37,583 nt of DNA from Rhodospirillaceae bacterium (GTDB lineage Bacteria; Pseudomonadota; Alphaproteobacteria; Rhodospirillales; JABHCV01): the NCBI GenBank assembly GCA_018671895.1, contig JABHGV010000003.1:1-37583 (forward strand), written 5' to 3'. Under the pieces are notes generated by a model. The model did no database searches. It was not told the DNA's origin and saw nothing but the letters and a program-made list of their open reading frames with translations. Each line of letters starts with the position of its first letter. Within the stretch, counting starts at the first letter, position 1. Positions 27,558 to 37,583 of this stretch are shown here, piece by piece. The translations under genes were made by a program, and so were the position numbers.

Positions 27558-28547
27558 GTGTCCCGACCCGTCATTCTTGCCATCATCGGCGCCATCGTTG
27601 TCGGACTGGCCATCGGCATGAACTACTGGTCCCAGCAGCCCGACGTCACGCCCGAGCAAACGAGCGCCGGAAAGGCAGCCAAACCCAAACCTGCCGTTAG
27701 CCACAGCCCCCGCACCCTGCCGCCTGCGTTTGATGTCGTACGCATCAACCCGAACGGCAACACCGTCATCGCCGGGCGCGCCCGGCCCGGAAGCGTCGTC
27801 ATCATTCGCGATGGCGAGACCGAACTGGGCCGCGTCAACGCCAACGACCGCGGCGAATGGGTGTTCGTGCCCGACGCACCGCTTGAACCCGGCAAACGCC
27901 GCCTTGGCCTGTTGATGATCAGCGAAGGCAACGAAACCGTGCCGTCCATCGCCGATGTTATTATCGTCGTTCCCGAACGGGGCATGGACCTTGCCGGGAA
28001 TCCGGGCACCGGTCAGGCGCTGGCCTTTCGGGTACAGCCCGACGGCAGCACCACGGTGCTGCAAAAACCGGGCGGCGACGCGGGCATGATGCTGAGCATC
28101 GATGCCGTCGATTACGACGATGACGGCAGTCTGGCAATCAGCGGCAAGGCCGTCCCCAACGCCATGATCCAGTTGTATCTGGATAACAAATTTATCGGCC
28201 ATGCCCGCACCGGGCCGGATTCCGGGGCCGGCCTTGGCACCTGGAACATGAAGCCCGACAACAGGGTCGCACCAGGCCTGTACAGGCTGCGCGCCGACCA
28301 CATCAACAGCGACGGGCGGGTCCTGTCGCGGGTCGAGTTCCCATTCTCGCGCGCCGACGACACAATCGTCATGGCGAAGGGCGAAACCATCGTCGTGCAG
28401 CCGGGCAACAGCCTGTGGCGACTGGCCCGGCACAGCTATGGCGAGGGTGTGCGCTATACGGTTATTTTCCAGGCCAACCGTGACAAAATCACCGATCCCG
28501 ACCTGATTTATCCCGGACAAGTGTTCAAAGTGCCGAAAAAGCAGTAA
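27558..28547 (+). CDS. LysM-domain protein with N-terminal membrane anchor
   Basis: This 329-residue protein starts at GTG, 5 bases after CGGAGGA. A hydrophobic segment (about 3-22) anchors it to the inner membrane. A Pro/Ala/Lys linker follows, then beta-rich Ig/BON-like segments (VIAGRARPGSVVIIRDGETELGRV and the later ISGKAVPNAMIQLYLD, both resembling bacterial Ig-like modules). A C-terminal LysM domain (about 278-327) has PGNSLWRLARHSYGEGVRYTVIFQAN and IYPGQVFKVP. LysM binds peptidoglycan N-acetylglucosamine. The gene precedes psd by 42 bases and may share its transcript. Confidence 0.88.
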   Translation: MSRPVILAIIGAIVVGLAIGMNYWSQQPDVTPEQTSAGKAAKPKPAVSHSPRTLPPAFDVVRINPNGNTVIAGRARPGSVVIIRDGETELGRVNANDRGEWVFVPDAPLEPGKRRLGLLMISEGNETVPSIADVIIVVPERGMDLAGNPGTGQALAFRVQPDGSTTVLQKPGGDAGMMLSIDAVDYDDDGSLAISGKAVPNAMIQLYLDNKFIGHARTGPDSGAGLGTWNMKPDNRVAPGLYRLRADHINSDGRVLSRVEFPFSRADDTIVMAKGETIVVQPGNSLWRLARHSYGEGVRYTVIFQANRDKITDPDLIYPGQVFKVPKKQ

Positions 28548-36866: not shown

Positions 36867-37231
36867 TTTACAGCCCCTTTCTTCTTCATCGCTTTGGCCT
36901 TGTTGTCCGCGAGCGCCACATCGATGGATCGCCGCGCCCACTCCTGCATCTCGTCGACATCGTCGAAAATCTCGTCCGGCACACGCCAGTAACGACCAAG
37001 GATTACAGGTTTATCCTTTTTCATATAGGTAAAAGGTTCCGAACCTGCCGCCTTAAAATCATCCATGCTTTCGTCATCGACCTTGAAATACAGAACTTCG
37101 TCGGCAATCAGGGCGAACATGGATGCCCCCCAATAGACCCCGCCACCGCCAAACATGCGCTTGATGGATATGGTGCCCAGCGGTTCCAGAAGGTCAAGAA
37201 TATGCTCTGCGTATTCCTTGCTAAAGGCCAC
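36863..37231 (-). CDS. TfoX N-terminal domain protein
   Basis: This 122-residue protein matches the TfoX_N fold: LLEPLGTISIKRMFGGGGVYW, then FALIADEVLYFKVDDES and EPFTYMKKDKPVILGRYWRVPDEI. It lacks the C-terminal half of full TfoX/Sxy competence regulators, as is usual for alphaproteobacterial versions. The start is GTG, about 9 bases after GGGGAA. The stop overlaps the DUF924 start by 4 nt. The C-terminus is Lys/Ala-rich. The 267-bp inverted-repeat element lies just upstream. Confidence 0.88.
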   Translation of the reverse strand: MAFSKEYAEHILDLLEPLGTISIKRMFGGGGVYWGASMFALIADEVLYFKVDDESMDDFKAAGSEPFTYMKKDKPVILGRYWRVPDEIFDDVDEMQEWARRSIDVALADNKAKAMKKKGAVK

Positions 37232-37244
37232 GGTGTGATTCCCC

Positions 37245-37511
37245 AGGGTCCAGACTCATTAAAACCATGCAATTGCGTTAGGTCAGGAAGGTCGAATGCA
37301 CGGAAATCAACGCGAAGGACATGCCATAGCATATTCGAGCGTTATTGACACAGCAGTCGGCCTTCCTGACCTAACCCGGAGGGCGAGGGTCTTTTAGCCA
37401 AAGGGTGCGTCGAGAAAACTTGACGATGCCCCACATCGCCTGCGTTTCCACTCCTGCCCTTTGTTTAAATTACCTCTCGCGCAATGGATCGTTTTAATGA
37501 GTCTTGACCCT
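37245..37511. repeat. 267-bp nested inverted-repeat element (MITE-like or structured RNA)
   Basis: The outer ends, 37245-37265 (AGGGTC, C, AGACTCATTAAAAC) and 37491-37511 (GTTTTAATGAGTCT, T, GACCCT), are inverted repeats matching at 20 of 21 positions. Similarity continues inward to about 37277 and 37480 (TTGCG/CGCaa). Inside are two separate stem-loops: 37277-37375, with a perfect 15-bp stem, and 37399-37463 (CAAAGGG/CCCTTTG), which encloses a small hairpin CGATG/CATCG (37424-37438). No coding frame is evident inside. The right end reaches the last bases of the neighbouring gene's stop codon. No clear target-site duplication was seen. Confidence 0.7.
37277..37375. repeat. Inner stem-loop with perfect 15-bp inverted repeat
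   Basis: GTTAGGTCAGGAAGG (37277-37291) is the exact reverse complement of CCTTCCTGACCTAAC (37361-37375), 69 bases apart. A second nested pair, TCGAAT (37292-37297) with ATTCGA (37333-37338), directly continues the left stem. It sits wholly within the larger 37245-37511 element. Confidence 0.8.
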
Positions 37512-37583
37512 AGACAATATTCCCGTCGATTTTATAGCGCCCGCCCGGGTCTTCGATTTCGATGACCCACAGGTCCGGGTCGC
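37510..37583 (-). CDS. C-terminal end of an unidentified protein (5' part outside window)
   Basis: On the minus strand an open frame enters from the window edge and ends at TAG (37510-37512). The 23 visible residues read DPDLWVIEIEDPGGRYKIDG followed by NIV. The regular mix of hydrophobic and charged residues and the good codon use suggest a real gene end, with a beta-strand and turn character. Too little is visible to name a family. Its stop codon overlaps the end of the inverted-repeat element by two bases. Confidence 0.5.
   Translation of the reverse strand, partial: DPDLWVIEIEDPGGRYKIDGNIV

Follow-up and report, generated by a model that had tools for sequence, protein, structure and literature searches.

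The right end of the 37,583-nt stretch of DNA analysed here (the window) carries a folded intergenic element between two minus-strand genes. To its left, the TfoX_N gene of a TfoX–DUF924–MatE cluster has its GTG start at 37231, a distance of 14 nt from the element's left end. To its right, as an earlier sequence-only reading of the locus had noticed, the element touches the stop of the upstream gene, a TAG at 37512–37510 on the minus strand. The element proper spans 37246–37510 (265 bp) between its target dinucleotides, of which the left one, CA, is by sequence comparison evidently a decayed TA. No transposase gene lies inside these 265 bp; the sole overlapping open reading frame of at least 70 amino acids has 74 and extends beyond the element.

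The outer inverted repeats and both internal stems that had been described at the locus were recovered, the first stem pairing 37277–37299 with 37353–37375 through 15 perfect base pairs within 23 nt, and the second being a real hairpin arm. Folding of a 277-nt region gave −125.4 kcal/mol for the plus strand and −133.2 kcal/mol for the minus strand, with z of about −10 for each; no shuffle out of 200 folded as well. The centre forms another small hairpin, CC-GGA-GG, which is conserved in other copies, so that the element has four helices and not three. Rfam searches gave no match above the gathering threshold, either for the window copy or for the other elements searched.

A model built from arm A sequences (R1) recognised arm B as well, on the other strand, so a single 65-nt hairpin is present twice in the element, in facing orientation. 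R2, a covariance model for one arm derived from 23 arm sequences, matched only the two arms of this element within the window at E ≤ 0.01 (Table 1). A weak R1 match at 27656–27733 (18.8 bits, E 0.058), absent with R2 at the same threshold, is likely due to chance.

Table 1 Features of the window copy, with positions in the window
Feature	Position	Strand	Basis
Left target dinucleotide CA	37244–37245		Aligned with other copies, whose ends mostly read TA
Left outer inverted repeat, class TAGGGTCC	37245–37265		20/21 complementary to 37491–37511; class found in other genomes
Arm B, long imperfect hairpin	37277–37375	+	Basal stem of 23 nt with 91% complementarity
Core hairpin motif of arm B, plus-strand reading	37293–37359	+	R1 31.2 bits; R2 58.0 bits, E 9e-13 (this arm was among the sequences used to build R2)
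Junction mini-hairpin CC-GGA-GG	37376–37382		Fold; 80 distinct spacers mostly have a similar centre
Arm A, long imperfect hairpin (ends approximate)	37383–37481	−	Fold of both strands
Core hairpin motif of arm A, minus-strand reading, facing arm B	37399–37463	−	R1 85.6 bits (this arm was an R1 training sequence); R2 77.6 bits
Right outer inverted repeat	37491–37511		20/21 match to left repeat
Right target dinucleotide TA	37511–37512		Overlaps the TAG stop of the upstream gene

Elements of this family share one plan, which runs from a TA or TNA target duplication through an outer stem, a hairpin arm, a mini-hairpin and a second arm to the outer stem again, mostly over about 260–330 bp. The start-to-start spacing of convergent arm pairs was 102–107 nt in 80 of the 92 pairs detected (mode 104, with 39 pairs), and most spacers carry a mini-hairpin resembling CC[CG]NNN[CG]GG. 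The facing pair is present in nearly all copies; rare exceptions to the plan have only one arm or contain a nested GC-rich hairpin. Four elements (L070 1501–1723, L120, L140 and L150) have an arm spacing of 158 instead of about 104; the extra length in L070 is a GC-rich hairpin beside one arm, which resembles the insertion of another small palindrome. Two shortened versions were also seen, one with a single hairpin motif between its terminal repeats (L048 1430–1590) and one with a pair of ends only 136 nt apart (G037:C178:12335–12492).

A search of the same genome found several further copies, so the element is not single-copy. DNA similarity alone gave one copy at 95% (contig C85), one at 76% (C72) and a diverged one (C78), all of which fold to the plan of the window copy, the diverged ones with different stem sequences; the arm model added copies at C78:26905, at C37:37627 and near C78:37737. 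Nor is the element unstructured in relatives, whose copies share the fold.

We searched the order and the class with R2. In the order, the family was found in 136 of 297 genomes and 61 of 111 genera (E ≤ 0.1), and in the class in 41 of 385 genomes and 36 of 277 genera (E ≤ 1e-4); for several genomes, the count of arm matches is to be read as at least the number obtained. Genome G097 (2.9 Mb) held 161 + 137 = 298 matches to one terminal repeat, against 0 for the control, and the pairs with both ends among the matches listed were mostly 239–240 nt apart. Copy number per genome ranges from a few to probably more than a hundred. Plasmid and viral sequence searches for the element returned only one partial match, on a viral contig (L272 4775–4800), where 26 nt resemble the apex of the motif and not the rest of the hairpin, possibly by chance.

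Family elements are intergenic, at a median of 4 nt from stops and 15 nt from starts, and by a rough open-reading-frame rule they occupy tandem (69), convergent (28) and divergent (21) gene contexts. Their orientation showed no bias relative to flanking genes, arm A lying 5′ in 28 of the tandem cases and 3′ in 31, so one-directional transcription is not favoured. These data bear on the earlier suggestion that the element may control the neighbouring operon, as a cis-regulatory RNA of the TfoX–DUF924–MatE cluster. The short distance to the TfoX_N start would suit such a role, but the element recurs at unrelated loci of the same and other genomes, in every kind of gene context and without preferred orientation, which makes an operon-specific function most improbable.

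In the class of elements with TACCAAGG ends, 21 of 52 copies have identical flanking triplets, compared with 10.2 expected and a maximum of 19 in 1,000 shuffles; these triplets are mostly TNA (TAA, TTA, TGA and TCA), and in the other classes most ends lie at TA. An empty site was found for a relative's copy, that of genome G033, which is missing at the same locus in its 28 congeners. When ten of these were aligned, the flanks ran through without the insert, with a 5-nt gap in both G050 and G165.

The terminal repeats themselves vary. At least eight classes, sorted by eye, surround the one core, and no fewer than two types of target duplication occur; the ends include TAGGGTCC, TACCAAGG, TAGTGGCC/TAGTGGTC, TAGTGGAT, TAGTACCC/TAGTGCCC, TAGTGTGG, TAGAGCA, TAGCCCGC, TAGGAGCC and TAGTGTCC. 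Elements of the TAGTGGTCTG class share their ends with an IS630-type autonomous element. The IS630-type element in genome G599 has the ends CTAGTGGTCTGCATCATCTAA, and one class of folded elements ends in TAGTGGTCTGTATCATCT; in G002 an IS630-type element directly adjoins a copy of the folded element, and the ends of both share TAGAGCGT. This IS630-type element (L226 1104–2440, G002:C99) is apparently flanked on its other side by the right end of another copy. No insertion sequence with the TAGGGTCC ends of the window copy was found, nor an autonomous copy with TACCAAGG ends among the matches listed. IS5-type DUF4096 transposases, which we considered as partners, are present in 6 of 15 genomes, and no matching ends were found for them.

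From the empty site, the excess of target duplications and the end class that matches an IS630-type element, we conclude on sequence grounds that the family is mobile. The non-autonomous transposable element proposed for the locus is thus borne out by copies in the same genome and in relatives, by the target duplications and by the empty site of the G033 copy. We suggest that a gene-less palindromic insertion would be moved in trans by DDE transposases recognising its terminal repeats, with insertion at TA in most classes and at TNA in the TACCAAGG class. The particular transposase that moved the window copy would likewise be of DDE type and act in trans. No match to a DDE_3 or DUF4096 transposase was found in the window genome, so this copy may be immobile now.

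We then compared pairing across the arms. Standard pairs make up 91.6% of the cells across 144 distinct arms (71.7% when shuffled), and the covariation score is 0.549, compared with 0.191 when shuffled and at most 0.167 with the partners slid, counts that are favoured because the alignment was fitted to the structure. A test independent of standard pairing came from the second position of the tandem mismatch, where non-redundant arms carry A.G in 31 cases, C.A in 10, A.A in 2 and C.G in none (Fisher p = 3e-8). The stems vary with compensation, and the internal loops are constant. G.T exceeds A.C in the core by 266 to 31, a ratio inflated by the preference of the arm-finding model for G.T; outside the core the strand bias (31:18, p = 0.085 after redundancy removal) was not significant.

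Template-switch or repair correction is known for quasi-palindromes, and it could in principle keep the stems of a self-complementary MITE identical without selection or any function of the core. The outer stems, which are very long and nearly perfect, are what such a process would be expected to leave, but the mismatches GGAG/CGAC and GCA/AA, which correction would erase, persist over many genera, and one mismatch position covaries. We regard this explanation as improbable and conclude, from the pattern of substitutions, that the fold is under selection. Of the three-way-junction RNA closed by a 20-bp stem that had been proposed for the locus, the selected fold stands; the three-way junction gives way to the four-helix plan, and sequence is mute on whether the folded strand is RNA or single-stranded DNA.

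Terminal inverted repeats, a target site duplication, multiple copies with insertion polymorphism and the lack of an internal transposase gene are all found in this family. We are highly confident that the window element is a MITE with a selected core, a degree of confidence that does not extend to the core acting as RNA. Because the motif copies are inverted, the first (5′) arm is the motif whichever strand is read, and the same holds for transcripts entering from the left or the right. The inverted pair would in this way guarantee that a single strand entered from either side begins with a functional hairpin, and the core, folded as a single strand, would help the element to persist. Most likely it would do so as RNA in read-through transcripts, through protein binding or through processing or stabilisation of flanking messages, as reported for ERIC and Correia elements; this is our preferred reading, to which we give slightly better than an even chance.

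The main rival, in our view less likely, is that the core acts at the DNA level, with a recombination or replication protein recognising the facing hairpins when these form on cruciform or single-stranded DNA, as has been proposed for inverted REP pairs (REPINs) and RAYT transposases. Two inverted hairpins whose spacing is fixed, whose loops are conserved and whose stems vary, together with the absence of an orientation preference relative to genes, would fit this, whereas the terminal repeats and target duplications indicate DDE transposition, and the A.G/C.A covariation, like the conservation of the loops, is in keeping with RNA motifs (although sheared G.A is possible in DNA). Two other known structures were considered and rejected: a kink-turn, suggested by the tandem G.A, does not fit the loop sizes, and an integron attC site is suggested by arm B of the window copy, which reads GTTAGGT..ACCTAAC, but not by copy E2, which reads GTCAGG..CCTGAC.

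Several known repeat families share features with these elements. RUP of Streptococcus pneumoniae, with about 100 copies, has ends that resemble IS630-Spn1 (PMC2229807, PMC3049150), and like RUP, ERIC and Correia/NEMIS, the present family is gene-less and intergenic, with terminal repeats that pair and TA termini (PMC2229807, PMC3049150, PMC10969869). Those elements, however, are about 100–200 bp long, with no conserved hairpin motif of this kind reported, whereas ours are mostly about 260–330 bp long with four helices, two facing motif copies and many end classes. CIR repeats of Caulobacter and relatives are two-armed, intergenic and abundant in Alphaproteobacteria, but are about 110 bp long, with unpaired ends and GANTC at the terminal loop (PMC2229807); here the ends pair, and inspection of the aligned arms found no conserved GANTC in the apical loops, which rejects this assignment.

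REPINs resemble the present family in having two inverted hairpins as a unit and a high copy number (PMC3116915), and CGTC REPs, which lack a dedicated transposase, are common in Alphaproteobacteria (PMC3116915, PMC3733652). REPs measure 20–40 bp and carry at one end a GTAG or CGTC tag that stays unpaired; our family, in contrast, has 65-nt cores without such a tag, long terminal repeats and target duplications. The family departs from REPINs in that the foot of the core continues into variable paired stems with no unpaired GTAG, and it does not qualify as a CGTC REP in that the core exceeds the REP length and the CGTC that follows the apical loop lies within the paired apical stem. A literature search, to which most subscription journals were out of reach, found no description of the folded family, which is apparently undescribed.

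MITEs are usually viewed as decayed insertion sequences with a filler interior. The present family reverses this, since its interior is conserved and its ends change. More tentatively, and at somewhat less than an even chance, the core may be a class-wide structured nucleic-acid module whose convergent pair works in either landing orientation and which has repeatedly swapped terminal repeats, so that it rides on unrelated transposase families with its own function conserved. The covariation is strong enough to define a structured family absent from Rfam, and because the covariance model recognises this family, one can directly test how far it has spread, how it affects flanking transcripts and what binds it. 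The family reaches many genera and very high copy numbers and frequently coincides with the contig ends of draft genomes. The window contig itself ends 71 bp past the element (37512–37583), and in other genomes, too, many copies sit where a contig stops; the repeats are thus a probable cause of breaks in assemblies.
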